A stretch of 64,000 bases of DNA from NCBI RefSeq assembly GCF_002367995.1, contig NZ_AP018207.1, forward strand, positions 7,860,199 to 7,924,198, in the 5' to 3' direction. This DNA comes from Calothrix brevissima NIES-22. GTDB lineage: Bacteria; Cyanobacteriota; Cyanobacteriia; Cyanobacteriales; Nostocaceae. This document shows, piece by piece, positions 7,025-58,091 of the stretch; within the stretch, counting starts at the first letter, position 1; each line of letters starts with the position of its first letter. Made by a program: the position numbers and the translations under genes. The notes under the pieces are model-generated. The model did no database searches. It saw nothing but the letters and a program-made list of their open reading frames with translations, and was not told the DNA's origin.

Positions 7025-7026
7025 AT

Positions 7027-29924: not shown

Positions 29925-30037
29925 AGATAATAATTTGAAAATTAACTAGCTTTATATGTAGGGGAGCCAGTGCGTTGCGGAGGTTACCTCCGTTATAGCA
30001 ACTGGCGTTGTGTTGTCGCGTAGCTCAACGCACCGAA

Positions 30038-30757: not shown

Positions 30758-30877
30758 TAAATTTGACGCTAAATTACTATATTTATGTAAATATACCGTA
30801 TTGTACTAAAATAATCCGCTTAGTTGCTTTTGCAAGTAATATTTTCTATATTTTTAACTATCACGAGAGTGTCAGAT

Positions 30878-31657
30878 ATGCCTCTTTATGATTCAATTGG
30901 TAAACAATATACAAAAACTCGCGTTTCTGACTATCGCATTATCCAAAAGATAATTGATTTACTCAATTTACTACCTGGTAGTATTATCGCTGATATTGGT
31001 GCGGGAACTGGTGGTTACTCGCAAGCGTTAGCAAATCAAGGATTTTCTGTTTATGCGGTTGAACCATCATCTGTAATGCGTCAACAAGGTTCAGAACATC
31101 CACAAGTTAAATGGTTTGCTGGGTATGCAGAGGCTTTACCTTTACCCGATAAATCTGTTGATGGGGTAATTAGTATTTTAACAATTCATCATTTCACAAA
31201 TTTAGAGAAATCATTTCAAGAAATGCACCGAATTATTCAGAAAGGGCCAATTGTATTGTTAAGTTTTGATATTAGATTGGCGACAAAAATTTGGCTGTAT
31301 GATTACTTTCCTTGGATGTGGGAAGATGCAATAAAATTTTTACCACTGCACGAACTTACAAGTTTAATTGAGCAGAATACTCAAAGAGTAGTTGAAGCCA
31401 TACCTTTGATTTTACCCTATGATTTATCTGATTTATTTGCCGCAGCAGCTTGGCGGCGTCCTGAGTTATATCTTCAGCCGGAAGTGCGTGCAGGAATATC
31501 TTCTTTTGCTTTGGGTAATCCTGATTTGATTGCATCTGGGGTGAAATCTCTCGCAGCAGATTTAAGTAGTGGAAAATGGGATGCAAAGTATGGAGAAATT
31601 CGTCAGTTAAATGAGATTGATTTAGGATATCGTTTTTTGAAAGCGACGATTGAATAG
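30878..31657 (+). CDS. Class I SAM-dependent methyltransferase (Methyltransf_11 type)
   Basis: About 259 residues with motif I IADIGAGTGGYSQAL, VYAVEPSS and LPLPDKSVDGVISILTIHHF. An earlier in-frame start at 30824 adds 18 residues of hydrophobic non-family sequence, so the ATG at 30878 (MPLYDSIG) is used. The substrate is unknown. Confidence 0.85.
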   Translation: MPLYDSIGKQYTKTRVSDYRIIQKIIDLLNLLPGSIIADIGAGTGGYSQALANQGFSVYAVEPSSVMRQQGSEHPQVKWFAGYAEALPLPDKSVDGVISILTIHHFTNLEKSFQEMHRIIQKGPIVLLSFDIRLATKIWLYDYFPWMWEDAIKFLPLHELTSLIEQNTQRVVEAIPLILPYDLSDLFAAAAWRRPELYLQPEVRAGISSFALGNPDLIASGVKSLAADLSSGKWDAKYGEIRQLNEIDLGYRFLKATIE

Positions 31658-31817
31658 CTTGGCTGATGCAATTGCTATATTATATTGATTCTGTAGTGAT
31701 GACTAAAGTCCTCACTACAAATTTAATTATGAAAACCTAGCTGAACAAAAATTAGTGGTGCGTTGCGCTACGCGACAACACACCCTACATTTTGAGATAT
31801 TTTGATATTTTGATTTT

Positions 31818-32621
31818 TTAATTTGAAGGTGTGAATAACTCAATTGTACCAGTTGACTGATTTTGTGTTTGGGATTTCCGTAATGTAATAAATGCGAGAA
31901 TAGCTATTACTGTAAGATATATACGTTGTAACCAAACATTGCTCAATTTAAGAGTTAAACTGCCGCCAATTATGCCACCAATAAACATGGTAGTTCCGAG
32001 AATTATACCTAAGTTGTAATCAACTATTCCTTGCTGTAAAAAAATTATTGTTGCTATCAAGGAGGAAAATATATTGATAAATTTAGTAGTAGCGATCGCT
32101 TCTACAAATGACATGCGAAATAGCATTATATATGCAGCAGTAAGTAGGGTGACATAACCACCACTAAAAAAACCTCCATAAATACCCAATATAAATGTGA
32201 CTACATAGCCAGCAATTTCGGCAATTCGTGGTGGAATAGCAGTAGATGGGGTAACTCCAGCATGACGATTAATGACTGATAATATCGCTACTATGATCAT
32301 GGAAGGAGAAATGATTAATGGCATTGATTTACTAGGTAAAATCAGTACCAATAATGCGCCTAAACATGAGCCGACTATTGTTAATAAAGTGAGTAAGGGT
32401 AACCGTTGAGGGTTAATTACTTTTTTACCAATAAAAGGTAAGGTTCCACCAATACTCATCAAAGTGAGTGCAAACATATTGGTAGCGATCGCAGTTCGCG
32501 GTTCTACACCAAATTCCAGCATTACAGGTACAGTAATCAAGGATGTGCTACCAGCAATCACGCTAACAATGCTGGCTGAAAAAAATATCCCAGCCAGCAG
32601 AATTATCTGCAAAATATCCAC
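31818..32621 (-). CDS. TauE/SafE-family membrane transporter
   Basis: 267 residues with about eight hydrophobic helices in two halves and the family's glycine-rich VIAGSTSLITVPVML and GGFFSGGYVTLL segments. The family exports sulfite or sulfoacetate or takes up related anions. It stands alone; the preceding gap holds a GTAGTGATGACTAAAG...CTCAC-type palindrome near 31,693. Confidence 0.88.
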   Translation of the reverse strand: MDILQIILLAGIFFSASIVSVIAGSTSLITVPVMLEFGVEPRTAIATNMFALTLMSIGGTLPFIGKKVINPQRLPLLTLLTIVGSCLGALLVLILPSKSMPLIISPSMIIVAILSVINRHAGVTPSTAIPPRIAEIAGYVVTFILGIYGGFFSGGYVTLLTAAYIMLFRMSFVEAIATTKFINIFSSLIATIIFLQQGIVDYNLGIILGTTMFIGGIIGGSLTLKLSNVWLQRIYLTVIAILAFITLRKSQTQNQSTGTIELFTPSN

Positions 32622-32796
32622 AATTTAATTTGCCAAAAACTTGTATTTAGTATTCTATGAGTTGATTTCTTAATTATTTACTTACTTATTAATTCTTAAA
32701 AATTGCAACATTTTATACCAATATTCTTAGTAAGAACTAGCTGATGTTGGTAACAAATAAGTTGGTAAATTATCTCCTAATTCAAAATAAAAAAGT

Positions 32797-33495
32797 TTAC
32801 TTTTGAGCAACTATCTTTTGGATTATTTGTCTGCGTCTATCTTGACGATTTTGGCTAGCAGTCTTGACGCTATCGATGACATTATCCGGTGCAGTTTGGG
32901 GAGAACCACTGTTAAAAGGCGGTTGAGGATTGTATTCTATTCCTAGTTGAATTGATTGCGCAGTGGCTTCTCCGTATAATTGAGCAGCGATGACTAATGC
33001 AAAGTCAATTCCTGATGTCACACCACCGCCTGTAATGCGATCGCGATCGATGACTACTCTTTGCGGTACTACCTCAACGCCAAACAACGCCAACAAATCT
33101 AGAGATAGCCAGTGAGTAGTGGCGCGATAACCTTGGAGTAGCCCAGCAGCAGCTAATAGCAAAGAACCTGTACAAACAGATGTGACATAGCGAGCTGTTT
33201 GCGCTTGAGTTTTGAGAAAGTCCAGAAAATCCCTATCTTCTAGTTTGGCATCAATACCCGGCCCGCCAGGGACAAATAACACATCCACAGGTGGGGATTG
33301 CGCAAAGGTGGTGTCAGGTAAAAACCGCAAACCGCGATCGCTTTGGATTGGTTCTAGAGTTTCTGCTAGTAGGTATAACTTTGTATTTGGTAATTTAGCA
33401 AAAACTTCATAAGGCCCGGTAAAATCTAACTGCGTTATATTGGGAAATATGACAATTCCTATGGATATAGCAGGGTTATGCTCTGCGTTACTCAT
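32797..33495 (-). CDS. DJ-1/PfpI-family protein (isonitrile hydratase-like)
   Basis: 232 residues with the nucleophile elbow VTSVCTGSLLLAAAG carrying the catalytic Cys, an FVPGGPG loop and TGGGVTSGIDFAL near the C-terminus. The ThiJ/PfpI group includes isonitrile hydratases, which this most resembles in layout. There is no AraC helix-turn-helix domain attached. It is a single gene facing away from the small ORF at 33,746. Confidence 0.85.
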   Translation of the reverse strand: MSNAEHNPAISIGIVIFPNITQLDFTGPYEVFAKLPNTKLYLLAETLEPIQSDRGLRFLPDTTFAQSPPVDVLFVPGGPGIDAKLEDRDFLDFLKTQAQTARYVTSVCTGSLLLAAAGLLQGYRATTHWLSLDLLALFGVEVVPQRVVIDRDRITGGGVTSGIDFALVIAAQLYGEATAQSIQLGIEYNPQPPFNSGSPQTAPDNVIDSVKTASQNRQDRRRQIIQKIVAQK

Positions 33496-33745
33496 GATTT
33501 TTTAAAGTTTTTAAATCAATCACATATCTTTTTTATATCTTAATTTTTTGTTAACAAATATTTTAATAAAAAACACATTAGCAATTTAAAAGCGCTTTTA
33601 GTCAAGATATGTTTAAATAGATTATATACTTTAATAATTTTTTATGGTAAAAATACGTACACTTTTTATTGAAGCATCGAATATTATTTAATCTATGAAA
33701 TAAGTAATCAATTATCTATTAGCTAAATATAAAGAGAAACATTTT

Positions 33746-33958
33746 ATGAGTAAAAAACAACAAGAAACAGTATTATGGATAGATTTGATGCGTGAGAGGC
33801 TGAAATATTCAGCGAATGGCTTATATGTTTTAGAAATTGAATATTATTTAAATAAAATTGCCGAAAATTTGCATGATGACAGGCTAGTTGATGATTGTAT
33901 CTACAACCTGCAAATGTTACGCATTCAAAGACAACAGGAAATTTCTCACTTAAATTAG
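33746..33958 (+). CDS. Small conserved-looking hypothetical protein
   Basis: 70 residues, mixed charged and helical, no membrane segment, no recognised domain (MSKKQQETVLWIDLM start). A reasonable AAAGAGAAA lies upstream of the ATG. It is flanked by long AT-rich gaps and has no operon partner. It is probably a real gene because the frame is compact and protein-like. Confidence 0.55.
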   Translation: MSKKQQETVLWIDLMRERLKYSANGLYVLEIEYYLNKIAENLHDDRLVDDCIYNLQMLRIQRQQEISHLN

Positions 33959-34191
33959 TTTAAGCGAGCTTAGATTTGTCCATTTAATAGCTTTTATTGT
34001 TTGTCGCCTTCACAGTGGGTGGGGGTATATCCGTAAGTATCTACGCCGTGCGGTTTGTGGAAAAGCGATCGCACTACAAGATTTTGCTTCGATCTCGTAT
34101 TTTTATCTGAAGGAATAATTTTTATATAAACTTTTATCGCCGGGGCATAGCTCAAGTCTACTTTAGTAGACTCAAAATTTTGACGTATATA

Positions 34192-34333
34192 TAGTAGTCT
34201 GTCGCATTAATTCTGTGGAGTAAGTTTCTTCTTCTTTTCTCTTACTTTGTGTACTTCGCGTCTACCCTGCGGGAACGACTTCGTCGAATGTGGTTCGTTT
34301 TTTACTCCTCGAAATTTTTGCGACAGACTACTA
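34192..34333. repeat. Inverted-repeat element (MITE-like), 142 bp
   Basis: Perfect 15-base terminal arms, TAGTAGTCTGTCGCA on the left and its complement on the right, enclose a stretch with the CTTCGCGTCTACCCTGCGGG-type sequence often seen in Nostoc repeats. It lies within the 559-base gap 33959-34517, where nothing else could be supported except a likely promoter for the gene at 34,518. Confidence 0.75.
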
Positions 34334-34517
34334 GGCTAGATCTGAATATGTAAATTTATGTAAAACTAATAGTTAGTGTAACTAAACAAGGTTGTATTTG
34401 TTTCAACAGCAAAAAACTGTGAAACATCACCTTGACTAGCTGCTCCTCCCTAACACTTAGCCCTAGTTTCTACCCCTGACATCATAAAATCAAACCTGGA
34501 TAGCTGAAGGCATAAAG

Positions 34518-35351
34518 ATGATTAAAGAAATAACTCGTCGCAACTTTATCGCAACTGCTAGCCTTGCTACAGGCTTTGCTTTAGCAGTACAGCCTGTGAC
34601 AGCAAAAGTCATCACCACCGATTCTCAAGGATTAGTCGCAGGTGCGGTGAAAATTCCTGTAGCAGATGGAGAAATTCCCGCTTATAGAGCGCAACCAGCC
34701 ACAGGTGAGAATTTCCCGATTGTGCTGGTGATTCAAGAAATCTTTGGCGTACACGAGCATATTCAAGATATTACCCGCCGCTTTGCCAAGTTGGGATATT
34801 TAGCGATCGCTCCTGAATTATTTATCCGGCAGGGTGATGTGTCAAAATTAAGCAATATTGACGAAATTCGCCCGATAGTAGCCAAAGTTCCCGATGCTCA
34901 GGTATTATCTGATTTAGATGCTACTTTAGCTTGGGCGGCAAAATCTGCCAAGGGTAATGCCCAGCGAGTCGGAATTACGGGTTTTTGCTGGGGTGGGCGA
35001 ATTACTTGGTTATATGCAGCACATAATCCCCAAGTGAAAGCTGGTGTAGCTTGGTATGGCAGACTAGTAGGTAATGCAACAGAACTGCAACCCACGCATC
35101 CTGTTGATATTGCTGCAAAGCTAACAGTTCCCGTACTGGGATTGTATGGCGGTAAGGATACAGGCATTACTTTAGATACAGTAGAGCAAATGCGCGATCG
35201 CTTAAAGTCTAGCAGTAGCAAATCGCAAATTATTGTCTACCCCGATGCACCCCACGCTTTTTATGCAGATTATCGTCCTTCCTACCGCGAAAAAGAAGCA
35301 AAAGAAGGTTGGAAACGCCTGCAAGCTTGGTTTAAACAGCATGGGTTGTAA
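34518..35351 (+). CDS. Dienelactone hydrolase family protein, Tat signal
   Basis: 277 residues. The N-terminus ([18 protein letters not shown]) is a twin-arginine signal, so it is exported folded. The alpha/beta hydrolase part has the Cys nucleophile in ITGFCWGGR, a GGKDTG acid loop and the His in [14 protein letters not shown], all matching dienelactone hydrolases. A related cytoplasmic copy lies in the nifD element at 50,584. The physiological ester is unknown. Confidence 0.9.
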
Positions 35352-35479
35352 AAACTGCTGAGTACATTAAGGGCACAATATGTTGTGCCCTTAACTATAT
35401 AGTCAATTTTCCATCCCCGTGAGGGGTAAGAGATTCAACACAAGTTTTCATTTACATCAGGGAAGATGCGATCGCTTCC

Positions 35480-35614
35480 AATACTGCTCGGTTAAGGAAA
35501 ATTGTAGATTGGGTTGAGGCTCTGCGAAACCCAACAGAGCTACCCAAATGTTGGGTTTCGTTCCTCAACCCAACCTACGCAGGTTAAGGTTTTTGAGCTT
35601 AACCGAGCAGTATT
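35480..35614. repeat. MITE-like inverted repeat flanked by GCGATCGCTTC
   Basis: 17-base perfect inverted arms (AATACTGCTCGGTTAAG) bound a 135-base element containing a second nested palindrome of CCCAAC/GTTGGG type. Directly outside, the same 11 bases GCGATCGCTTC occur at 35468-35478 and 35615-35625, which may be a target duplication or two copies of the abundant HIP1 motif. Confidence 0.75.
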
Positions 35615-35643
35615 GCGATCGCTTCTACAATTCAAATAATGTT

Positions 35644-35720
35644 GGCGACACATCAATATATCCTAGAGGGCATGGCATTGCCATGCCCCTACAATCTGTC
35701 GCATTCTTTTTTCAAATTGG
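35644..35720 (+). repeat. Dispersed 77-bp palindromic repeat, copy 1
   Basis: Begins GGCGACACATCAATATAT, has a GGCATGGCATTGCCATGCC core and ends CGCATTC...CAAATTGG. The same unit occurs at 37016-37091 (same orientation) and 41907-41983 (inverted). It ends just before the stop codon of the convergent gene at 35,740. Confidence 0.85.
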
Positions 35721-35739
35721 GATAAAGTCCAAAATTGAA

Positions 35740-36846
35740 TCACTGCTTGCGTTGTACATAGCTAACCCCATCCAGCCAAATCACACTCTTGGGATCTTGC
35801 GGATCTGTAATCAGAATGCGCCGCTCGCTAGATTTATCATCGTAAGTAATGTACAGTGTTAACCCCTGAACGCGATAGGTACCGCGCTGATTTGGTGCGA
35901 CACTGTTGGTAGCAACTGATTCGTTACTTGCACCTGCACCTTGACCGCGTAGAACTCGTCCATCGGGGAAAAAGCGATATTGTTGCCATGCTACCACGGA
36001 ATCACTACCGCCAATCGCTACGTTTCCTGTACCGGAGAGTGAGCGAAATAAGCCGTTAAGTTTGAAATTATCTGGTAATTTAGGATATGTCTTGGAAAAA
36101 GGTAAGGCTTTCCACTCGCCCTTTTCGGCTAGTTCTAGTTTGCCACCTTGACGCCGCCAACGAGTCCATTCATCTGGGTTAGCGCGTTTGTGGGCTGCAA
36201 TTCCACCTTTAAAAGACAACCCTTCCACATTAGTTAAAGCCTCACCGTTACGAAACAGCACTACAGGATAAATATCAGTAGTTAAAAAGCCACCAATACC
36301 CATTTTTGTCCGGGAATTGAAGCCAAAGCTATCAATTTGCTTGGCAATTTCGTTATCTCCTGGGGAAGTAGCAGCTTCAGGTTTTTTCGCAGCTGGTTGC
36401 GGAGCTTTTTTCGGCGTTTTCGGCGGTTGACTTCCTGATGAAATGATTTGCGGCGATACCTTAGCAAATTGAGCATCGGGTAATTGTGACAAAGATACAG
36501 CCACAGTACAAACATCTACATTGGCGCGTTGACTGGTAACTGGTTTAATAATTGCTTCTAAAGCTGTGTCTAGTTGTTGTTTTTGAGTAGGGTATTGATC
36601 GAATTCCGGTAAACGCGCGCGGATTTGGGCGACACCGTTGGCTTTTTCCCAAGCTTGAACTTTAGCCGCATCTCCAGCATTAAAGCCGCTACCTTGCTGA
36701 CATTGGCTAGCAAAGTAATCGAATGCTCTTACTACTAGCGCCGCCTTCATAAAGGCTTCACTGGTGATGTCAGGATTTTGCCCATAGACAGCCTGCGCCC
36801 CAGCTAGTGACATTAGCAAAGTCATGGCGATCGCATTTACTCGCAT
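35740..36846 (-). CDS. Hypothetical secreted protein
   Basis: About 368 residues with an N-terminal signal peptide (TLLMSLAGAQAVYG, cleavage likely after the Ala/Gly stretch), a helical first part, a Pro/Lys/Ala-rich linker near residues 155-180 and a beta-rich C-terminal domain (GTYRVQGLTLYITYDD near the end). I do not recognise the family. The start MRVNAIAM is preferred to an in-frame Met four codons earlier. It is probably a periplasmic or cell-surface protein. Confidence 0.75.
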   Translation of the reverse strand: MRVNAIAMTLLMSLAGAQAVYGQNPDITSEAFMKAALVVRAFDYFASQCQQGSGFNAGDAAKVQAWEKANGVAQIRARLPEFDQYPTQKQQLDTALEAIIKPVTSQRANVDVCTVAVSLSQLPDAQFAKVSPQIISSGSQPPKTPKKAPQPAAKKPEAATSPGDNEIAKQIDSFGFNSRTKMGIGGFLTTDIYPVVLFRNGEALTNVEGLSFKGGIAAHKRANPDEWTRWRRQGGKLELAEKGEWKALPFSKTYPKLPDNFKLNGLFRSLSGTGNVAIGGSDSVVAWQQYRFFPDGRVLRGQGAGASNESVATNSVAPNQRGTYRVQGLTLYITYDDKSSERRILITDPQDPKSVIWLDGVSYVQRKQ

Positions 36847-37244
36847 ACAAACCCCCATATCATGACGTTAACGGTGGAATTAAACGACAGTAGATATGTA
36901 TAGCACCTACTCATGCAGATTATGCCTATTTTATGCGTGCCAATGCAACTTGATGCGGCCATCGCACATCACGCAATTTTGTAGTCAGGACTTCAGTCCT
37001 GATTTGCGGACTAAAGCGACACATCAATATATTCTAGAGGGCAAGGCATTGCCTTCCCCCTATAATCTGTCGCATTCTTGTTTCAAATTGGTATTAACTC
37101 CCCAACAATTTCATCTTTGATCGTCGGCAAATTCACTGATTACTCAATACTCAACTGTACTACCTCATCTAGTGAAACTAGCAATGTCAGGAAATTTAGG
37201 AATTGCTACTATTTTGCCGTCGAGATTAATATCAGGTGCATATC
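36847..37244. other. Intergenic gap with two dispersed palindromes
   Basis: A 398-base gap. It contains a GTAGTCAGGACTTCAGTCCTGA-like palindrome near 36,981 followed by copy 2 of the 77-bp repeat. No gene is supported. Confidence 0.6.
37016..37091 (+). repeat. Dispersed 77-bp palindromic repeat, copy 2
   Basis: Same ends as the copy at 35644 with a variant core (GGCAAGGCATTGCC). Compensating changes in the two arms are only partial, so this copy's hairpin is less perfect. Confidence 0.85.
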
Positions 37245-37490
37245 ATGACAGAATCCAACCGCATCAACAAAGATAAATTTACCTATCCTCGTAGTCGTTA
37301 CTATGGGCAAGTCAAACCAGAGAATTTAGTATTTAATGCCAATCTCCAAGAATTTTCGCAAAAAGTTGGTTATATCTCCAGCCTAGAAACCAACGGTAAA
37401 CTTTCACCAGAGGAAGCTTACGAGCAGATTAAAACAGTGTGGAAGCAGTTAAAAAAATCGAAAAAGGAATTAGGAATTACTAGTAAGTAA
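37245..37490 (+). CDS. Small hypothetical protein
   Basis: About 81 residues starting MTESNRINKDKFTYPRSRYY; charged, Lys-rich C-terminal helix, no membrane segment. I recall similar short proteins in many filamentous cyanobacteria but know no function. The ATG at 37245 is preferred over a GTG nine bases upstream. Confidence 0.7.
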   Translation: MTESNRINKDKFTYPRSRYYGQVKPENLVFNANLQEFSQKVGYISSLETNGKLSPEEAYEQIKTVWKQLKKSKKELGITSK

Positions 37491-37520
37491 AATTTCCTTT
37501 TTCCTTTATTACTGAATAAT

Positions 37521-38270
37521 TTACCAATATTGCAATGTTGGGCGAATGAGAATCTCATTCACGTTGACACGTGGCGGTTGTGTCACAGCATAAGCGATCG
37601 CGGCAGCAATATCTTCACTTTCTAAAGGCGTCAGGGAACGACGGCGTTCTTCCATGTTTTGTTTGGCTACAGGATCGGAAATGCGATCGTTAATCTCTGT
37701 ATTCACTAAACCAGGTTCAATAATAGTTACGCGGATATGATCCTGACAAACTTCTTGGCGCAAGGCTTCTGAAAAACCATTCACGCCCCATTTAGTAGCG
37801 TTATATACACCAATTCCTGGTCTTGCTGTGCGCCCAGCAACCGATGAAATATTCACGATATGCCCCGCACCTTGAGCTTTTAAAATTGGTAAGACGGCAT
37901 GGGTAACATAAAGCAATCCCAATAAATTGAGATTAATCATATCTTTCCAATCTGCGGTATTTCCCCCATCAATAGCACCCACAGCCGCAATCCCTGCATT
38001 ATTCACCAGGATATCTATCCGCCCAAATTCTGTTTTTGTCTTGTGGACTAAATTCTGTACTTGAGCTTTATCTGTGACATCAGTAATAATTGGTAGAGCT
38101 TTACCGCCAGTAGTAGCAATTTTTTCTGCCAGGGTATTTAAGCGATCGCCTCTGCGTGCAGCCAATACTACTGCTGCACCATCATTTGCTAGAGCTATGG
38201 CTGTAGCTTCGCCAATACCGGAAGAAGCCCCGGTAATAATTGCAACTTTGCCGTCTAATTTATTTGTCAT
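37521..38270 (-). CDS. SDR family oxidoreductase
   Basis: 249 residues, classical short-chain dehydrogenase: TGASSGIGEATA cofactor loop, NNAGIA, catalytic Ser in NISSVAG and YNATKWG (YxxxK). Closest in feel to YdfG/serine-dehydrogenase-like enzymes. It is transcribed directly after the O-methyltransferase gene with a six-base gap, so the two form an operon. Confidence 0.92.
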   Translation of the reverse strand: MTNKLDGKVAIITGASSGIGEATAIALANDGAAVVLAARRGDRLNTLAEKIATTGGKALPIITDVTDKAQVQNLVHKTKTEFGRIDILVNNAGIAAVGAIDGGNTADWKDMINLNLLGLLYVTHAVLPILKAQGAGHIVNISSVAGRTARPGIGVYNATKWGVNGFSEALRQEVCQDHIRVTIIEPGLVNTEINDRISDPVAKQNMEERRRSLTPLESEDIAAAIAYAVTQPPRVNVNEILIRPTLQYW

Positions 38271-38276
38271 GATTAA

Positions 38277-38942
38277 TTAACGCTTAATTGCTAAAGTCAG
38301 TCCATCGGCTATGGAAATCAAGCTTAAATCTATCCGCTCATCTTGATGCAGCTTTTGATTAAACTCTCGAATCGCATTAGTAGCAGAGTCTTGCACCTCT
38401 GCGTTTGCTGCTCGTCCAGACCAGAGTACGTTATCAACAGCAATTAATCCACCTGGTCTAATTAACTGTAACACTCTTTCGTAATAAGCATAATAGTTTT
38501 CCTTATCCGCATCAATAAAAGCAAAATCAAAGGTTTCTGCTTCACCTGCTGATAATAATTTATCTAAAGTCTCCGTTGCTGGAGCCAATCGCAGGTCAAT
38601 TTTATCTGCTACACCAGCTGCTTGCCAATAACGCCGAGCAATATCGGTAAATTCTTCACTCACATCACAAGCAATGATTTTACCGTCAGCTGGTAACGAT
38701 AAAGCAACGCTTAAAGAACTATAACCTGTGAAAACTCCTAACTCCAGAGTCTTCTTTGCGCCAATCAGCTTAACTAAAAAACCGAGAAACTGTCCTTGCT
38801 CTGGCGCTACCTGCATATTTGCTCTGGGATGACGCGCTGTCTCTTCCCGCAGTTTAAAGAGTAATTCTGGTTCGCGCAAAGAGATAGACAACAGATACTC
38901 ATAAAGTTCGTTAGATAGATGCAGCGTTTTACTACGAGTCAT
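38277..38942 (-). CDS. O-methyltransferase (caffeoyl-CoA type)
   Basis: 221 residues with LELGVFTGYSSLSVALSLP, the FAFIDADKENYYAYY metal/substrate segment and VDNVLWSGRA, all signatures of cation-dependent class I O-methyltransferases. It is the first gene of a two-gene operon with the SDR. The natural acceptor is unknown. Confidence 0.92.
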   Translation of the reverse strand: MTRSKTLHLSNELYEYLLSISLREPELLFKLREETARHPRANMQVAPEQGQFLGFLVKLIGAKKTLELGVFTGYSSLSVALSLPADGKIIACDVSEEFTDIARRYWQAAGVADKIDLRLAPATETLDKLLSAGEAETFDFAFIDADKENYYAYYERVLQLIRPGGLIAVDNVLWSGRAANAEVQDSATNAIREFNQKLHQDERIDLSLISIADGLTLAIKR

Positions 38943-39096
38943 AGGGCTTTTGGGATTGTTACAGGTAATTTTCAGCCTTAGCTTACCCGAATTAGGGAAT
39001 TTTGAATTCTGGCATTGGGCTGATATAGTTTATAATGTACATTAAATCTATCGACTTAGAGTATTTTATTTTTTTGCATCGAAGGAAGACAGCGAA

Positions 39097-39348
39097 ATGG
39101 CATTAGCCCAAAACATCAGTATCCCAGACAATCAAACAGTAAATCGCCCTTTATTCTCAAAGAAACCGCTAGCCATCGCCGCCTTATTACATCGGCTATG
39201 GTGGCACACTAAAGGGTATACAACAGTTTTGGGGATGATGGTGCTGACATTTGGCAGTTTGGGTTTTTTATACATCTATGTTTCCGCTAAGAAGTTCACC
39301 CAAATATCTCAGCATCGTCCTGTTGTAGAAAATAATGAGTATAGATAA
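39097..39348 (+). CDS. Small single-span membrane protein
   Basis: 83 residues with one membrane helix in the C-terminal half (VLGMMVLTFGSLGFLYIYV). It overlaps the next gene by 14 bases, which indicates translational coupling and a shared role with the PhnD-like protein. The family is not recognised. Confidence 0.7.
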   Translation: MALAQNISIPDNQTVNRPLFSKKPLAIAALLHRLWWHTKGYTTVLGMMVLTFGSLGFLYIYVSAKKFTQISQHRPVVENNEYR

Positions 39349-40138
39349 AAGGTTGCGAATAGTATCTTACCTAGCGCCTAATTGGTTCGGATTTTATCAA
39401 GCGATCGCAGCTTATTTAAGTCGGATTTTACCACTAGAAACCCAACTACAGCAAAGCCAAATCGATCCCTTAGAAGATCCAAAGTTATTTCAAGACCAAA
39501 TAGACCTAGCTTTTATTTGTGGCTTACCACTAATTCGCTATAGTCAAATAGTCTCTCACCAATTGCAGACATTAGTTGCACCTGTGATGACATCATCACG
39601 CTATCACAACTTGCCGATTTACTATGCAGATGTGATTGTCAACGCTCGTAGTCATATCCAGAAGTTTGCAGATTTATCGGGTAAAACATTTTGCTATAAC
39701 GATGCAGGTTCTAACAGTGGTTACAATTTACTCTGTCATCGCTTACTTCAAGAAACAGATCCGGAAAATTTCTTTGGTAAGACTATACAATCTGGCTTTC
39801 ATCAGCGTTCAATTCGCTGGGTAGTAGAGGGATTAGCAGATTGTGCAGCCATTGACAGCGTGGTATTAGAACAGGAATTAGAAAACTCTCCCGAATTATC
39901 ACAGCACTTGCGTGTGGTGGATGCTTTAGGCCCTTCTCCTATGCCACCTTTAGTAGTAGCACAGCGTTTAGGTATCGCTTTAATTGAACAAATGCGGTTA
40001 GCATTACTGCAACCCGATGCAGAGTTGCAAGCAATCATGGCAGAATTTGGAGTTAAGCGTTTTGCTGCGGTTGAATTAGAAGATTATCAAATACTTAACC
40101 AAATTTACCGTACCCGCGCTTGTGTAAGCTTGTCTTAA
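39335..40138 (+). CDS. PhnD-like phosphate/phosphonate-type substrate-binding protein
   Basis: 267 residues of periplasmic-binding-protein-like fold (Phosphonate-bd/PhnD group): FICGLPLIRYS near the start, NDAGSNSGYNLLCHRLL and SGFHQRSIRWVVEGLADCAAID in the middle. It has no signal peptide of its own. The small membrane protein overlapping its start could be its partner. No permease or ATPase genes are next to it. Confidence 0.8.
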   Translation: MSIDKRLRIVSYLAPNWFGFYQAIAAYLSRILPLETQLQQSQIDPLEDPKLFQDQIDLAFICGLPLIRYSQIVSHQLQTLVAPVMTSSRYHNLPIYYADVIVNARSHIQKFADLSGKTFCYNDAGSNSGYNLLCHRLLQETDPENFFGKTIQSGFHQRSIRWVVEGLADCAAIDSVVLEQELENSPELSQHLRVVDALGPSPMPPLVVAQRLGIALIEQMRLALLQPDAELQAIMAEFGVKRFAAVELEDYQILNQIYRTRACVSLS

Positions 40139-40479
40139 ATATAAAATTTCACGCTAGAAGTATAGATAATTGTAAGGGCATGGCACTGCCATGCCCCTAC
40201 CTGTGTACCTCATTTACCTGAAATACGCTGTATATGCGGTGAACTCTTCTTGATTTCTCTTCCTTTGTGCCCTTAGTGTCTTTGCGGTTCGTTTTTTAAC
40301 CTTCAAAATTACAGCAGTTTTCACCTATTTAAACCAGATCTGTCGTAGGGGCACGGCACTAGTCAAATTATTGTATGTACCAAAAGATTGTCGGTGCCGT
40401 GCCCCTACAGCGTGGTCTATTTACCTGAAAATAGCTGTAATGCGATAGACCAAAAGCATGTAAATTTTGTTACTTTCCA
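40139..40479. repeat. Intergenic gap with GTAGGGGCA-type palindromes
   Basis: 341 bases of repeats: a GGGCATGGCACTGCCATGCCC hairpin near 40,172 and a larger inverted repeat 40345-40408 with 15-base arms GTAGGGGCACGGCAC. A CTTTGCGGTTCGTT-type fragment lies between. There is no gene. Confidence 0.75.
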
Positions 40480-41730
40480 TTAAGCTGTAATCCCGTAAAT
40501 CCGATTCTGCTGTTGTGCCAAAAACAGAGCATCTTGATAAACTTGCTCAAACAATACTCGCTGTGCATGACTACCGCCAATTTCCTGGAGGCGCGACAAT
40601 ACAGGCTTGAGTTCTACAACTGTTCTATAGAAATCACCTTGAGCATGAGCTACCATTCCTCTAGCTGCGGGGATTGCTACCTCTAACCAACCTCTTTTCA
40701 GGAAAGGATTGATAGTCAAAGCATGGTGTTGCATACTCTCTAACATCTGATTTGCTCGTTGATGATATCCAGCTTTGGCAAAGGCATAGACATAATGCAA
40801 ATCTTGAAATGGTAATGCATGTTCGCCAATGCGGTTGTCAAGATAATTACTCATATCTTGCCAGCGATCGCCTACATTTACCCGGCGTAATTCTAAACGC
40901 CACAACAATGAAATTGCCCCTACTTGGTCTTTAGGCGATTGTTTGTTTGCACGTTCCCAAACGTGAGTATCGTAAAGCTTAAGTACTTTTTCGTAATTTT
41001 TTTGCTCTAAATAATACAGTGCAATATGCCACCAATTATGAGTGTAGAGCATAGAATTGCAGTTTTCCCAGGTATCTGCAAAAGCCTCCATCCAAGCTAT
41101 ACCCTCACTAACTCTTCCCTGAGTTTCCATCACATGAGCGATCGCATGATGCGCCCAAGGATCGTATTTATTGAGAGCGATCGCTTGACGCGCTATTTTT
41201 TCTGCTGCATTCAGTTGGTGACATTGTTCTAAACCAAACGCCACCATTCCATATAAATAATGCTGTTCTAAATTACTTGGTAATACTTTCTGGGCAATTT
41301 GTAATAATTTATCTTTGTCGCCTATGTAAAAATAATGATATTGTCCCTGTTGTACCGAGATTAAATCGCGGGGAAATTTATCGGTGATTTCTTCGTGAAT
41401 TGCGATCGCCACATCAATCTGCTGATTTGCCCAAGCTAAAATAGCCTGCACATATAACTTTTCTCTCGTCGTTGTCTGAGCTAAATATTTTTGTGCAGCT
41501 TGCAGATATGGTTGTGCTTGCTTCCAAGCTTGGCTATTTTCTTGACTCAAATAATAAGCTGCTGCATAACCATGCGCTAATGCACAAGTGGGATCGGCTG
41601 CAATAGCTTGCAAAATCGCTGTTTCTGCATCTCTGCCATAGCCAAGCGCTTGCTCGATAAAATTATTAATAGCCGCGATCGCTTTGGCTGAATCTGTCGT
41701 GACAATCAGTCCTTGTGCATCTTTGAGCAT
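40480..41730 (-). CDS. Tetratricopeptide-repeat protein
   Basis: About 416 residues, all-helical with TPR-like units (for example AILQAIAADPTCALAHGYAAAYY and the KIARQAIALNKYDPWAHHAIAHV stretch). It resembles the TPR_38-type proteins widely found in bacteria. There is no signal or membrane segment. The start MLKDAQG is preferred to one seven codons earlier. Role unknown. Confidence 0.8.
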   Translation of the reverse strand: MLKDAQGLIVTTDSAKAIAAINNFIEQALGYGRDAETAILQAIAADPTCALAHGYAAAYYLSQENSQAWKQAQPYLQAAQKYLAQTTTREKLYVQAILAWANQQIDVAIAIHEEITDKFPRDLISVQQGQYHYFYIGDKDKLLQIAQKVLPSNLEQHYLYGMVAFGLEQCHQLNAAEKIARQAIALNKYDPWAHHAIAHVMETQGRVSEGIAWMEAFADTWENCNSMLYTHNWWHIALYYLEQKNYEKVLKLYDTHVWERANKQSPKDQVGAISLLWRLELRRVNVGDRWQDMSNYLDNRIGEHALPFQDLHYVYAFAKAGYHQRANQMLESMQHHALTINPFLKRGWLEVAIPAARGMVAHAQGDFYRTVVELKPVLSRLQEIGGSHAQRVLFEQVYQDALFLAQQQNRIYGITA

Positions 41731-42110
41731 AATTAATTCCTTACACCACAATCTATAGAGGTGCTAATAGCATCTCCAACTAAAAGCTTGATTGTAAAAT
41801 ACGGTAAATCGGTCGAGTAATGTGCTTATTCCTTTGAGTATGTCATATCCATCAAAAAACCGCAAGCGATAAACTACTAAAATCCGATAGATAAATAGTA
41901 TTTAATCCAATTTAAAAAAAGAATGCGATAACCGGGTAGGGGCAAGGCATTGCCTTGCCCTCTAGAATATATTGATGTGTCGCCAAAATTATATAAACCA
42001 ACCTAAAAGCAAAATTTGCTCCCTGAGCGCAGTCGAAGGGAGCGCAGCCACAGGGAGCAAAAAAAGTAAAAGGATAAATTGTCTGTAGAGTTAACGATCA
42101 ATAAAATCCA
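41731..42110. other. Intergenic gap with a dispersed repeat
   Basis: 380 bases. The 77-bp repeat copy 3 occupies 41907-41983; after it comes a CTCCCTGAGCGCAGTCGAAGGGAG hairpin-like sequence near 42,019. No gene is seen. Confidence 0.6.
41907..41983 (-). repeat. Dispersed 77-bp palindromic repeat, copy 3 (inverted)
   Basis: The reverse-oriented copy of the unit at 35644 and 37016, with a well-paired GGCAAGGCATTGCCTTGCC core. Confidence 0.85.
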
Positions 42111-42536
42111 TCACTCCAGTATAAAACTATTCAAATAATCTAGAGGCACAGTAAACACATAATAGAGTACACCACCGCCGAGAAGAACTACAGCCAAGCT
42201 AGCAAGCAATATCCAACGGTCTGGAGGTTGATAAGTATCCTCGTCAATATCACGACGAACAGCGAAATAATGCTGAGTTGAAAGTAACACTGTTAACACG
42301 CCAACCAACGCAAATGCTAACCCCAACTTCCAACCACTACCAGGCGGTTGCGGTGCTAAAGGCGGACGAATAATCCGCAACCTGACAATTAACACCCCAA
42401 AACCCATGAGTGCAATCCCACTTCGCATCCAAGCTAAATAAGTACGCTCATTTGCCAAATGATCCCGCACCCTATCCGATCTATATTTCTTTTTTTCTAC
42501 AATCTTTTGTGCCAATTCTTTTGCTTCTGTCTTCAT
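42111..42536 (-). CDS. YidH-family (DUF202) membrane protein
   Basis: 141 residues with the DUF202 start RDHLANERTYLAWMRSGIALMGFGVLIVRLR and three hydrophobic helices. It is a small inner-membrane protein of unknown role. It is divergent from the LysR gene. Confidence 0.88.
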   Translation of the reverse strand: MKTEAKELAQKIVEKKKYRSDRVRDHLANERTYLAWMRSGIALMGFGVLIVRLRIIRPPLAPQPPGSGWKLGLAFALVGVLTVLLSTQHYFAVRRDIDEDTYQPPDRWILLASLAVVLLGGGVLYYVFTVPLDYLNSFILE

Positions 42537-42913
42537 TACATTTAAATCTTCAACTAACTGGCTAAAATGCGTCTACGGACTTCCCAGTAAAAAATATTTC
42601 CTGATAACAGTCAACGACTCGAAGCGGAATAATTGATTTTTCGGAGTTACCCTACTCGCTGTATAACACCTCACATTTAAAATTGTGTTTAAATCTTCTG
42701 TATAAGCATAGTTTCAGTCTATAACTCCTTCCAAATCAAAGCAAACAGTCTTTTTTGTTAAATTCATAGACTGAATTTATGGTTGTGCAGCTCATACATA
42801 TAACCATAATAACCATATCACGAACATATACAAATAACTACAGTTATCCGCTAAATTTAGCGTATAATGCTTTTCAGGTAATTAATAAACTAACCAAGCT
42901 GCACATAGTCCCA
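42537..42913. other. Divergent upstream region of DUF202 and LysR genes
   Basis: 377 AT-rich bases with no supportable gene. An open frame extends the LysR gene upstream to 42779 but lacks protein-like character. The LysR regulator would normally bind in this interval; I could not fix a T-N11-A box with confidence. Confidence 0.45.
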
Positions 42914-43849
42914 ATGACGCTGGAACAGTTGCGAATTTTTTTAGCCGTAGCGGAAATGTTGCACTTTACTCGTGCAGCCGAAACACTTTACATTACTCAG
43001 CCAGCAGTGAGTGCGGCGATTCAAAGCTTAGAGACAGAATATGGTGTGCGGTTATTTCATCGCATTGGCCGTCATATAGAAATCACAGATGCAGGTAAAT
43101 TATTACAGCGTGAAGCGCAAAAGATTCTTGACCATGTAGAGTTAACCAAACGCGGCTTAAAAGAGTTAAATAATTTACAACGTGGAGAGTTAAAAATAGG
43201 TGCAAGCCTCACCGTTGGTAACTATTGGCTACCCGAAAAAATTAGTCAATTTAAGCAATTATATCCTGGTATTTTTATTAATTGTAAGTTAGGTAACGCA
43301 GAAGAAATTTGTGAAGGAACTGCTGTAGGTATCTATGATTTAGGTTTAGTCACGGGAGATATTAAACCATCATTACAGCAATCTTTAGAGAAAGCAGAAA
43401 TAGGACGCGATCGCCTGCAAATTGTTGTCGGTAAATCTCACCCTTGGTATGGGCGTAATGAAGTTTATCTAGAGGAATTATTTAATACCGGTTGGGTAAT
43501 GCGCGAGTCTGGTTCCGGCGCACAGCAAATATTTCATCACGCCTTAGAAAGTTGGGGAATTGAACCCAGTAACTTAGATGTTGTCCTTAACCTCACTACC
43601 AGCGAAATGGTAAAATCTGTCGTCGAAAGCGGCGTAGGTGCAGCCGCAATTCCCGAATCAATGGTGAAAAAAGAATTACAATTAGGAACCTTACACGCTG
43701 TGCAAATTATTAATAGGCAAAAAAAATGTCATAACAAATTAGAAATTGTCCAGCCTGTGTGGAAACTCAAACACCGTCAACGGTTTCACACCAGAGTTAT
43801 GAGCGCCTTTGAGGATATGCTGATTCAAGAAGATATCCAAGTTGCTTAA
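42914..43849 (+). CDS. LysR-family transcriptional regulator
   Basis: About 311 residues. The N-terminal helix-turn-helix is textbook LysR (MTLEQLRIFLAVAEMLHFTRAAETLYITQPAVSAAIQ split over residues 1-36), followed by a substrate-binding domain (GELKIGASLTVGNYWLP). The start at 42914 is chosen because LysR proteins begin at this motif. It is the last gene before the nifK breakpoint, about 100 bases away. The effector and targets are unknown. Confidence 0.93.
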   Translation: MTLEQLRIFLAVAEMLHFTRAAETLYITQPAVSAAIQSLETEYGVRLFHRIGRHIEITDAGKLLQREAQKILDHVELTKRGLKELNNLQRGELKIGASLTVGNYWLPEKISQFKQLYPGIFINCKLGNAEEICEGTAVGIYDLGLVTGDIKPSLQQSLEKAEIGRDRLQIVVGKSHPWYGRNEVYLEELFNTGWVMRESGSGAQQIFHHALESWGIEPSNLDVVLNLTTSEMVKSVVESGVGAAAIPESMVKKELQLGTLHAVQIINRQKKCHNKLEIVQPVWKLKHRQRFHTRVMSAFEDMLIQEDIQVA

Positions 43850-43934
43850 GTTAAAGCGGAAATTAAAATGTTATAAATAATACTTGTAACTAGATTTTGT
43901 GGCGCTAATTGCGATCGCGCCTCATAACTTACAA

Positions 43935-45239
43935 TTAACCTGATAGCCAACGCATTAGAGAACGTAAGTGCCACAAGTCTTTACCTGCCCAGATTTTAGC
44001 TTCCTTACCGAAGGGGCTAGAATCTAGCAATGCTTGAAGTTCTTTTTCAAATACATCGTTGGAGTTGTGAACCAAAATGTGAACAGGTTCAGCACCCAAT
44101 TCCAACATGAAGCCAACAACACTGTAAACCAAATCAGGATCGCCGTAGATAGCGAAGCGCTTACCGTGAACCCAAGCATGGGAGTCAGTCATAGCATCAA
44201 CTGCACGACCGCGTTCGATTTCTAGCTCTTCAGGAATGGGTTTACCAGTCAGTTCGCTGAGTTTGATTAGGAACTCATCAGTAGCTTTAATGCCCCAAGG
44301 ACGAGAAACAACTACATCTTGCTTCCATTCTTTAGCGATGTAATCACGGGTCTTAGGAGTAGAATGAGCTTGCAGAACAACTGTAGCCTTAGCATTAATT
44401 GCATCTGCTGCATCTTCTAACTTAGTACCACCTGGGTACATATCGAATTCACCTGTGTTAGGTGCATCCAAATAATCGCTGTTGTCAGAAAGAATGGTGT
44501 AGTCGATACCGAACAGAGAAGCAATACGTTTTACTTCCCGGAGGTTACCAACGTAGGTGTCAAAACCAGAGATGAAGTTAATTTTGCCATTGCTGGTGGA
44601 TTTCTTCTTACCTGCGGTTAAGGTAGAAAGAATTCCCTTCATCATGTTGTCGTAACCAGTGATGTGGGAACCAACAAAGCTAGGAGTGTGAGCGTAAGGA
44701 ACTGGGAAATCTTGAGGAACTGAACCAGCACTCTTAGCGTTGTTAATAAACGCTTGTAAGTCATCCCCGATAACCTCAGCCATACAGGTGGTGCAGACTG
44801 CAATCATTTTGGGCTTGTACAGAGTGTAAGAGTTTGCCAAGCCATCAATCATGTTTTGCAGACCACCGAACACGGCTGCGTCTTCAGTCATGGAAGAAGA
44901 CACACCAGAGAATGGTTCTTTGTAGTGACGGGTTAAGTGGGTACGGAAGTAAGCCACGCAACCTTGAGAACCTTGAACGAAAGGTAAAGTACCTTCAAAA
45001 CCAACCGCAGCGAACATAGCGCCTAAAGGTTGGCAACCTTTAGCAGGGTTAACTGTTAAAGCTTCACGAGCGAAGTTCTTTTCACGATAATCCCAGCTTT
45101 TTGTCCATTCCGCAACTCTTTCTACTTCTGCGGGATCGTGACCGTTTTCAAACTCTTTCTTGTTTTGGAAAAGTTGTTTGTACTCCGGTTGGTGGAATAG
45201 CTCTACGTGGTCTTGAATTTTATCTGGATTCTGAGGCAT
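43935..45239 (-). CDS. nifK: nifK 5' part, nitrogenase MoFe protein beta subunit (interrupted)
   Basis: 434 residues, of which about the first 428 are NifK. The P-cluster cysteines are present in [20 protein letters not shown] and [12 protein letters not shown]. The protein follows the family up to KDLWHLRSL and then reads MRWLSG and a stop. The normal protein is about 510 residues and continues with a phenylalanine-rich FTEP-type stretch, so about 80 C-terminal residues are missing, including conserved C-terminal segments. No other frame downstream resumes the family, so this is a clean DNA junction and not a frameshift. As it stands the gene cannot give a normal subunit. Confidence 0.92.
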
Positions 45240-45463: not shown

Positions 45464-45608
45464 TTAAACGGTAGCTTTAGCCTTAGCTCCAGCTTTCTTG
45501 CTCCAAGGAGCACCAATTAAACCCCAGGTTGGGCTGTTGAGTGCCAAATCCATATCACGAGCGAAGATAGCAAATCCGTCATAACCGTGATAAGGGCCGG
45601 AGTAATCC
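45464..45608 (-). CDS. nifD: nifD 3' part (45 codons after the element)
   Basis: The minus strand reads [15 protein letters not shown] through AKAKATV and a TAA stop at 45464, the normal C-terminus of NifD. It begins at the 11-bp core repeat. Joining it through that repeat to the 5' part at 56729 keeps the frame exactly (TCC GGC CCT) and gives a 498-residue protein. Confidence 0.95.
45598..45608. repeat. nifD element core repeat, nifK-proximal copy
   Basis: CGGAGTAATCC on the plus strand. It is identical to 56729-56739 and overlaps the serine and glycine codons of NifD. Confidence 0.97.
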
Positions 45609-45747
45609 TTTTTATGCTTCAATGACTTTCAGTAGCCTAATGTTCGCCGCAATCAATGTCAGTTTCAAACATTGTTCGCCCAGAACACATTTATTTTTAG
45701 GCTAAATCTAGGCTAAAGATACCGCAATGCATAACCAGGGTCAAACA

Positions 45748-46008: not shown

Positions 46009-47310
46009 ATGAGAACAAAAGTCTTGCAAGAGTTAGAGAAAGTAAATCTGCGTTTGAAGTCTGCAAAGACAAAGGTAACAATTCGCGAATCTAATGGAAG
46101 TCTGCAATTACGGGCGACGTTACCAATTAAACCGGGGGATACAGATAAAAATGGGACTGGGAGAAAGCAATATAATATTAGTTTAAATATTCCCGCCAAC
46201 TTAGATGGACTGAAAACGGCGGAAGAAGAAGCTTATGAATTAGGTAAGTTAATTGCACGGCATACCTTTGAATGGAATGATAAATATTTAGGTACTGAGG
46301 CGATTAAAAAAGATTTTCAAACTGTAGGAGAATTACTCGCCAAGTTTGAAGATGAGTATTTTAAAACTCATAAACGCACTACTAAAAGCGAACATACATT
46401 TTTTTATTATTTTTCAAGGACACAGAGATTTACTAATTCTCAAGATATCGCCACGGCAGAAAATTTGATAAGTGCGATTGAAAAAATTGATAAAGAATGG
46501 GCTAAATATAATGCAGCTAGAGCCATAGCAGCATTTTGCCAAACATTTAAAATCGAAATTGATTTATCTAAATATTCTAAAATGCCCGATCGCAATTCTC
46601 GCAACATTCCCACCGACGGGGAAATAGCCACCGGAATTGCCAAGTTTGAAGAGTATCTGCATACTAGAGGTAATCAAGTAAACCAAGAAGTGAAAGATAG
46701 CTGGCAGCTTTGGCGCTGGACTTATGGTATGTTAGCAGTTTTTGGTTTACGTCCACGAGAATTATTTATTAATCCCGATATTGATTGGTGGTTGAGTCAA
46801 GAGAATATAGATTTTACGTGGAAAGTCCATAAAGACTGTAAGACTGGGGAAAGGCAAGCTTTACCTTTATATAAACAATGGATTGCAGAATTTGATTTAA
46901 GAAATCCCAGGTATTTAGAAATGCTGGCGACAGCGATTAGTAAAAAAGATAAAAATAATCATGCAGAAATCACAGCTTTAACCCAAAGAGTTAGTTGGTG
47001 GTTTCGGAAAATTGGCTTAGATTTTAAGCCTTACGATTTACGCCATGCTTGGGCAATTAGAGCGCATATTTTAGGCATACCAATTAAAGCGGCGGCAGAT
47101 AATTTAGGGCATAGCGTGCAAGTGCATACCCAAACTTATCAGCGTTGGTTTTCGCTGGATATGCGGAAGTTGGCGATTAATCAAGCTTTGAGTAAACGGG
47201 ATGAAGTGGAATTGATTAGGGAAGAGAATGCAAAGTTGCGGATGGAGAATGAAAAGTTGAAGTTGGAAATTGAGAAGTTGAAAATGGAGTTAGTTTATAA
47301 GCGGAGTTAA
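46009..47310 (+). CDS. xisA: XisA, tyrosine recombinase of the nifD element
   Basis: 433 residues. Recombinase motifs: Arg in AVFGLRPRELF, YDLRHAWAIRAH (Tyr where most relatives have His, as I recall for Anabaena XisA), LGHS, and the nucleophile Tyr in TQTYQRW. The C-terminus is a charged coiled coil. It lies about 400 bases inside the nifK-proximal border, as in Anabaena. The same frame continues upstream to 45895 and reads EGQDKYQQAFADLEPVS and on to QQQREH, matching my memory of the longer Anabaena XisA, but no ATG, GTG or TTG is available there. I therefore place the start at 46009. Confidence 0.95.
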   Translation: MRTKVLQELEKVNLRLKSAKTKVTIRESNGSLQLRATLPIKPGDTDKNGTGRKQYNISLNIPANLDGLKTAEEEAYELGKLIARHTFEWNDKYLGTEAIKKDFQTVGELLAKFEDEYFKTHKRTTKSEHTFFYYFSRTQRFTNSQDIATAENLISAIEKIDKEWAKYNAARAIAAFCQTFKIEIDLSKYSKMPDRNSRNIPTDGEIATGIAKFEEYLHTRGNQVNQEVKDSWQLWRWTYGMLAVFGLRPRELFINPDIDWWLSQENIDFTWKVHKDCKTGERQALPLYKQWIAEFDLRNPRYLEMLATAISKKDKNNHAEITALTQRVSWWFRKIGLDFKPYDLRHAWAIRAHILGIPIKAAADNLGHSVQVHTQTYQRWFSLDMRKLAINQALSKRDEVELIREENAKLRMENEKLKLEIEKLKMELVYKRS

Positions 47311-56708: not shown

Positions 56709-58091
56709 CTAGGGGCGATCGCTAGGTTCGGAGTAATCCCAAGAGTGCATTTGACGGAAAGGAAGACCCATCTTTTGGAAAACGTACTTCTCTTTCACAC
56801 CAGAAGCAATCAAATCTGGCTTGAGTGCTTTAACAAACTCTTCAAATTCGTAAGCGGTCACGTCGTCATAAACGATGGTGCCGTTGTCGATGTAGTGAGT
56901 GGTACGTTTGTAGTCGTCGTTATGAGCAAACTCATAACCAGTACCAATCATCTTCATACCTAGGTCGTAGAAAGCGGGTACAACGTGGCGAGGACGTAGA
57001 CCACCAACCATCATAGCGACGGTCTTACCTTCCAAACGGGGGCGATATTTCTTAATAATCGCATCCATTGTGGGCTGGTACTTAGCAATGATCTTCTCAG
57101 CGTTTTCTTGGATCTTAGAGTCAAACTTAGAAGCGATTTCCCGTAAGGATTCAGCAATCTTAGTAGGCCCAAAGAAGTTGTATTCTAACCAGGGAATACC
57201 ATACTTCTCTTCCATGTGACGGCTGATGTAGTTCATCGACCGGTAGCAGTGGATGAGGTTAATTTTTACGTTTGGTGTCAGCATCATTTCGTTGATGGTG
57301 CCATCACCAGACCACTGAGCAACTACACGTAAGCCTAATTCTTCTAACAGAATCCGGCTAGCCCAAGCATCACCACCGATGTTGTAGTCACCAATAATAG
57401 CTACGTCATAAGGAGTAGAATCGAAAGGCAGTGTACCGTCTTTCTTGGCTTGGTCGGCTCTGGGGAATACCCAGTCACGAATTTGGTCGTTAGCAATGTG
57501 GTGACCCAAAGACTGAGAAACACCACGGAAGCCTTCGCAACGTACAGGAATAACAGGCTTGTTAATTTCTTTAGCTGCTTTCTTAGCTACTGCTTCGATG
57601 TCATCCCCAATCAAACCGATGGGACATTCAGATTGAATAGAAACACCACGGCTGAGGGGGAACAGTACTTCGAGTTCTTGAATCAGCTTTAAGAGTTTTT
57701 TGTCACCACCGAAAACGATGTCTCTTTCTTGGAAGTCGGAGGTGAAGTGCATGGTACCAAAGGTATCAACACCAGTTGTACCAATGTAGTAGTTACGACG
57801 ACCAGACCAAGACCAGTAACCGCAACCTACAGGCCCGTGGCTGATGTGGATCATGTCCTTAATAGGGCCCCAAACCACACCTTTAGAACCTGCATAAGCA
57901 CAACCACGAGCGGTCATTACACCAGGTAAAGATTTGATGTTAGACTTAACGCCGCAGTCAGACTTGCCTTCTTCGTATACATTTAAGTGCTTTTCCCGTT
58001 TTTTAGCTGCTTTTTCGGGATAGGCTTGGAGAACTTCTTTAATTAGTTCTTTTCTTTCGTCAACGATATTCTTGTTTTCTGGAGGAGTCAT
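56709..58091 (-). CDS. nifD: nifD 5' part, nitrogenase MoFe protein alpha subunit (interrupted)
   Basis: 460 residues as read, 454 of them native; the last six (EPSDRP) come from the element. P-cluster cysteines in [16 protein letters not shown] and SECPIGLIG; FeMo-cofactor Cys in [12 protein letters not shown] and His in RQMHSWDYS, which lies immediately before the break. Joined through the 11-bp core to 45464-45597 it gives a 498-residue protein, so the gene is intact after excision. Confidence 0.97.
56729..56739. repeat. nifD element core repeat, nifH-proximal copy
   Basis: CGGAGTAATCC, identical to 45598-45608. It overlaps the Tyr-Ser codons of DYS. Confidence 0.97.

Follow-up and report, generated by a model that had tools for sequence, protein, structure and literature searches.

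It is an open question why heterocystous cyanobacteria keep DNA elements inside their nitrogenase genes. The available excerpt of the main survey (PMC4874684; Hilton, Meeks and Zehr 2016) records eight nifK elements and reports elements of up to nearly 1 Mb. As described there, nifK elements have in common an interrupted nifK, perfect short repeats and an opposite-oriented, XisF-related recombinase at one end. The same excerpt reports that XisH and XisI are required along with XisF in Anabaena 7120, and places seven elements with opposed gene halves under 'odd assembly', calling them likely mis-assembly (PMC4874684). For Anabaena variabilis, the accessible text of PMC4284476 states that almost no transcript from downstream of the nifD element is left unless the element is excised, that nif1 works in heterocysts only, and that nif2, with its fused nifE-N, works in vegetative cells under anoxia. 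The nearest published precedent for a cargo product restricted to vegetative cells, as far as the accessible part of PMC1079853 goes, is CYP110, encoded on the nifD element and detectable in vegetative cells but not in heterocysts.

The locus described here lies in a 9.26-Mb genome of 9 contigs, that of Calothrix brevissima NIES-22. The window, meaning the whole stretch of 64,000 nucleotides analysed (C1:7860199-7924198), contains the right part of a nifK interruption element of 115,787 bp which, very probably, XisK excises at heterocyst formation, restoring a 511-residue NifK with loss of the cargo. Given the size range in PMC4874684, size alone is not new. The cargo sets the element apart: an NRPS cluster, a cpc3-type operon and sulfonate genes, no such cargo being named for nifK elements in the excerpt of that survey. 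The nifK element itself is therefore of a known kind, and what is new is its cargo, parts of which recur in other genera, and a scrambled form in sister species.

In the proposed sequence of events, nifK would be split by 115,787 bp in the vegetative cell. At heterocyst formation XisK would join two GTTCTCT cores, giving the 511-residue NifK and releasing the nifK element, probably as a circle. Excised element DNA may persist in that form. The elements in nifD and nifE, and probably one at fdxN, would have to leave in the same cell. Along with the nifK element the cell would shed the NRPS glycopeptide-type cluster, the sulfur-sparing phycocyanin operon and the sulfonate-use block; as this cargo leaves with the element, the heterocyst chromosome would lose genes suited to a photosynthetic vegetative cell. 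Making of the peptide product in vegetative cells only, as the original prediction proposed, would follow the same logic.

The split nifK gene and its recombinase

The nifK ORF of the window (43935-45239, minus strand, 434 aa) is authentic to about codon 427/428: it reads as NifK up to LRSL, then continues with MRWLSG and a stop. In a nifK model search of the genome it matched positions 1-433 only of TIGR01286, positions 428-516 being matched 115.8 kb further left on that contig and strand, at C1:7788118-7788381. No nifK 3' match was found by this search in the left 43.9 kb of the window. The original prediction had described NifK as normal to LRSL and then ended, with about 80 C-terminal residues missing and nothing in those 43.9 kb to resume it; this was accurate, the exact figure being 84-85 residues. 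It had also expected a nifK 3' end left of the window with a recombinase nearby, and both were found there, xisK starting about 40 bp inside the element at its nifK 3' end.

A perfect short direct repeat, GTTCTCT, marks both junctions. One copy, at window 43957-43963 (minus strand), overlaps the stretch 43,945-43,975 for which a shared repeat had been forecast, and the other lies at C1:7788368-7788374, ~71.8 kb left of the window. This core is short and was located because the protein alignment predicts its place; the inverted arms are, at the level of sequence, the stronger sign of a putative attachment site. The left arm, AATGCGTTGGCTATCAGGTTAATT (window 43933-43956, minus strand), pairs with an inverted right arm at the other end of the element. 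These element-side 24-base arms are identical at 20 of 24 positions; among 100,000 pairs drawn at random from the element, 1 paired as well. The core-to-core distance is 115,787 bp, and window 1-43956 (unstranded) is the right part of an element extending left beyond the window to C1:7788374, which supports, at the level of sequence, the excision-type element of more than 43 kb that had been proposed. Joined in silico at the core, the nifK halves give an open frame of 511 residues. The junction DNA (window 43850-44300) has a single occurrence in the genome, no rejoined nifK1 copy is present in the assembly, and no tRNA genes were found in six stretches spanning the element.

The nifK 3' fragment (85 codons) has no start codon of its own, yet the number of synonymous differences from each of five congeners, including G004 with its intact nifK, is 16-20 and that of non-synonymous ones 0; evidently the fragment remains in use, translated within NifK. 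The nifK 5' and nifE 5' parts are likewise conserved in the congener comparison. An uninterrupted nifK, that is, an empty site, is present in three of the eight genomes of the genus. Four congeners keep arms and core at both nifK junctions.

The recombinase gene xisK (C1:7788415-7789977) reads away from nifK, a position and orientation that fit the rule given in the excerpt of PMC4874684. Its 520-aa product is a large serine recombinase (PF00239, PF07508 and PF13408), XisF-related, 51% identical to the XisF-type protein of the same genome and orthologous to the recombinases of other nifK elements. The fdxN element of Anabaena 7120, with XisF, likewise has a large serine recombinase but occupies another gene and another site. 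A relative at least 72% identical occurs in 34 of 145 family genomes, the next best being 54% identical, and in all 34 the nifK 3' part lies within 2 kb of xisK on the same contig. In a second collection, nifK 3' is present in 32 of the 33 named loci with xisK, the remaining locus being incomplete. This constant proximity indicates that xisK marks the nifK site. Two crude patterns for XisH and XisI, a weak test, had no match across 200 kb. On the xisK contig of Brasilonema bromeliae an XisH-like ORF can be seen by eye (L195 4347-4793), with phycoerythrin genes nearby. The idea that congener xisK genes are pseudogenes was discarded, as the in-frame TGA at alignment position 2 lies ahead of their start codon.

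Other nif genes are interrupted as well. The nifD gene has a 3' piece at window 45464-45620 (minus strand; edges approximate, by eye) and a 5' part at 56709-58091 (minus strand), and its element carries an xisA-like recombinase (46009-47310, plus strand) that has no Pfam match and was named by position and by a tyrosine-recombinase-like motif. The nifE gene, left of the window, is split too, into a 5' part (C1:7786891-7787457) and a 3' part (C1:7779754-7780542), with a serine recombinase of the nifE element at C1:7785427-7786833, all in operon direction; a nifE split near residue 190 is found in 8 of 29 other xisK genomes. The sequence suggests a candidate fdxN element near nifS. An XisF-type recombinase adjoins nifS (window 62562-64000; region up to C1:7939069), and ferredoxin and nifB-like frames were noted by eye ~15 kb beyond it.

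Cargo between the nifK halves

The ~56-kb NRPS cluster (C1:7833077-7888916, about window -27,121 to 28,718) is contained entirely in the DNA that separates the nifK halves, and the earlier placement of a peptide cluster in the interrupting DNA was thus correct. It comprises four NRPS genes with, by Pfam count, 9 adenylation, 12 condensation and 9 carrier domains, together with a thioesterase, glycosyltransferases, exporters, a WelO5-family halogenase and a methyltransferase domain located in the two-module, thioesterase-bearing NRPS. The window begins within one NRPS gene (3' end at 1-4404, plus strand; whole gene C1:7853665-7864602, 3645 aa, with 3 A, 4 C and 3 T domains). On the same strand lie cluster genes for an epimerase, an MFS exporter, a PMT-type glycosyltransferase, GtrA and GT2 (4585-10176) and for a methyltransferase and an alpha-amylase-family protein (10209-13690). 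The WelO5-family, carrier-independent halogenase (14154-15041, minus strand; PF22814, E 3.7e-113) is followed by a 2142-aa NRPS (15624-22052, plus strand; 2 A, 2 C, 2 T) and by glycosyltransferase, cupin, UDP-glycosyltransferase, ABC exporter and MFS genes of the cluster (22378-28718, unstranded). Ordinary genes fill the DNA up to the right end of the element (29091-43849, unstranded): Band_7, methyltransferases, TauE, DJ-1, dienelactone hydrolase, SDR, phosphonate-binding, DUF202, LysR and two genes without a Pfam match.

Presumably the cluster resembles hassallidin-type glycolipopeptide clusters. These share with it 9 adenylation domains, a methyltransferase domain in a thioesterase-bearing NRPS and glycosyltransferases, and the presence of a WelO5-family halogenase sets the nifK-element cluster apart. 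This halogenase is absent among the matches listed for the elements of Hassallia and Plectonema. A plasmid of conjugative type, plasmid1 of Aulosira laxa NIES-50 (AP018308.1 223629-274258; L179 from 225000), has four matching NRPS genes and 88-96.5% DNA identity to the NRPS core, which indicates that the cluster is mobile. In protein, the 2142-aa NRPS is 96.5% identical to the Aulosira plasmid gene and 69% identical to a gene beside xisK in Hassallia. On the Aulosira plasmid the accessory genes of the cluster are partly different, and a PKS adjoins.

A phycocyanin operon (C1:7810337-7813769) encodes CpcB, CpcA and two linkers. The four proteins contain 0 internal Met, and 2 (CpcB), 1 (CpcA), 0 and 0 Cys; the two nearest other CpcB copies in the genome contain about 6 internal Met per protein (6 in one; 7 in the other, whose frame is over-long). 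The C-phycocyanin alpha model scores above its cut-off in this operon. A Met-free phycocyanin is the signature of cpc3, the sulfur-starvation phycocyanin. The cpc3 of Calothrix PCC 7601 shares the Met and Cys depletion, whereas the operon here is located within a nif element. On its sequence the operon appears to be of cpc3 type and putatively sulfur-sparing. Around it are SsuA, SsuC, SsuD and SsuE, which all exceed their curated cut-offs, SsuB and TauD-like proteins, which do not, and, nearby, an FAD oxidoreductase and a ferredoxin. The locus thereby links a nif element with cargo whose cell-type logic is plausible, covering antenna, sulfur scavenging and secondary metabolism.

nifK elements in other genomes and competing readings

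Among the 34 genomes with xisK, the nifK halves are in direct orientation on one contig in 18, with elements of 4.2-115.8 kb, and opposed in 4. In the other 12 they are on separate contigs or, for G101 and G136, no separate 5' half is listed. The intact nifK of G101 is not an excised form of its split one, the two contigs being merely 83-90% identical. The closest named relative by xisK (95%), Tolypothrix FACHB-123, has a nifK element of 14.8 kb in the same orientation, both sides of which match both sides of the 115.8-kb element. It is without the ~102-kb middle (C1:7791347-7893839), save for one 288-base match, and without about 5.8 kb at the right end. Between nifK 3' and xisK, FACHB-123 has ~4.2 kb of its own, unmatched DNA (L106 5746-9954).

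Cargo was compared in 27 of the 29 other-genus xisK genomes, leaving out G027 and Westiellopsis prolifica, at thresholds of 58% identity or NRPS in 17 genomes and 50% in 10; the material included whole elements and stretches running to a contig end, several of only 2-9 kb. At these thresholds, common cargo is present in five. No shared cargo was found at the thresholds used in the remaining 22, some of them represented by stretches of 2-9 kb, bar weak general NRPS-type matches in G139 and G066.

This scatter is one of the grounds for a reading that is compatible with excision, in which the element leaves while its cargo is random passenger DNA whose loss is invisible to selection. The chances for and against it seem to us evenly balanced. 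The wide size range of the elements, the absence of the middle from FACHB-123 and the mobility of the NRPS core are all in keeping with it, but the cargo that does recur is harder to accommodate. In Hassallia byssoidea, four NRPS genes (69-73%, nearly full length) and 11 of the 16 accessory genes of the NRPS cluster lie within 56 kb adjoining xisK and nifK 3', the nifK 5' half being on a separate contig. In Plectonema radiosum, a 26.9-kb element with both ends on one contig contains a cluster remnant, made up of NRPS fragments and nine accessory-gene matches, two of them partial. These two genomes belong to the same genus, another than that of the window genome, so the NRPS cargo may be one event.

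The sulfonate block also recurs. In Brasilonema bromeliae eight of its genes come after xisK, in the same order and on the same strands as in the window genome, with two more partial matches; these genes do not include cpc3, and nifK 5' is on a separate contig. The aldo-keto reductase of the block is found in two more, closed elements, those of Scytonema tolypothrichoides and Calothrix NIES-4101. Seen by eye, the Brasilonema xisK contig continues to phycoerythrin genes and a chorismate synthase-like gene. Shared cargo may reflect common descent, repeated capture or selection. As parts of the cargo recur by or in nifK elements of a few other-genus genomes, selection on it becomes testable. Recent capture of the cargo from the chromosome was also considered, and is weakened by the collinear block beside xisK in Brasilonema.

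It is very improbable that unrelated DNA was joined between the nifK halves by an assembly error. Besides the missing middle in FACHB-123, this reading could appeal to the seven congeners, in all of which the cpc3/sulfonate block is matched at other places among the matches listed: chromosomal and far from nif in Nostoc carneum NIES-2107 (G001), G002 and G007, and on other contigs than nif in four drafts. N. carneum and G007 have a collinear block, and the two genes on either side of the NRPS cluster in the window genome are direct neighbours in G007. Against this stand the arms and core kept in four congeners, the order of the eight Brasilonema genes, and the left flank (7788200-7792423), where no long near-identical repeat appears among 41 listed matches (40 of 268 candidates scored); the right flank was compared only against the surrounding 200 kb. 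An assembly join, named in the original prediction as evidence against it, is accordingly unlikely.

A complete second nifK had been named in the same way. One does exist, within an intact nifHDK cluster at C1:7953-7961 kb with full nifH, nifD and nifK frames, a fused nifE-nifN frame of 963 aa and no element. It might be taken to mean that nif1 is decaying, its split nifK dead and the second cluster in its place; the substitution pattern of the nifK 3' fragment rules this out to within a very slight residual likelihood. Conservation of nifK 5' and nifE 5' argues the same way, as do the open frames of xisK, xisE and xisA. The second nifK is present in four of the eight genomes of the genus, including N. 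carneum and G003, and absent from G002 and G007, whose sole nifK is split, a further point against decay. By analogy with Anabaena variabilis, the second nifK appears to be nif2-type and not a replacement for nif1, and as part of such a cluster it does not refute excision. Finally, a simple insertion of 116 kb of foreign DNA is ruled out by the cpc3/sulfonate block lying elsewhere in seven of seven congeners among the matches listed, and is also contradicted by the 14.8-kb version in FACHB-123.

Scrambled nif operons in relatives

In three congeners, N. carneum, G007 and G002, the operon reads nifK5', a stretch, an inverted block, a stretch, nifE3' and nifN. The inverted block holds xisE, nifE5', nifK3' and xisK (L062-L063, L064-L065 and L066-L067), and the attachment arms are retained at both nifK junctions. 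The draft of Nostoc linckia FACHB-104 (G003) is consistent with this order as far as its contigs permit. In silico, inversion at the nifK cores (4.9-10.5 kb) followed by excision at the nifE repeats (12.3-17.6 kb) yields a NifK of 511 and a NifE of 461-469 residues in all three genomes, and the reverse route, nifE inversion first and nifK excision second, yields identical proteins.

We lean, with moderate confidence, towards a scrambled nif operon in these relatives that would be repaired in each developing heterocyst by one site-specific inversion and one excision, in either order; the window element would be an unscrambled, cargo-rich relative. If true, bacterial genes would here be unscrambled in two steps, roughly as in ciliates. 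N. carneum is among the strains in which it becomes PCR-checkable. A search by title and abstract opening, with most subscription journals outside its coverage, found no paper on an inversion restoring a nif gene or on a cpc3 operon in a nif element.

The 'odd assembly' elements in the excerpt of PMC4874684 have opposite-facing halves, as do N. carneum, G002, G007 and Westiellopsis prolifica. Unlike those, the scrambled arrangement recurs in three genomes (of 4, 7 and 20 contigs), where an inversion and an excision resolve it; this suggests that opposite-facing gene halves can be genuine and resolvable. G004, whose nifK and nifE are clean, groups with G003 among the scrambled genomes (support 0.999) in a tree where G000, G005 and G006 were taken as outgroup and deeper branch support is 0.842. 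If unscrambled genes can also be fixed in the germ line, such a position is to be expected; a repeated origin or a gene replacement may also account for it. In Westiellopsis prolifica, nifD3'-nifK5' is inverted between nifD5' and xisK-nifK3' (L103 3435-19711).
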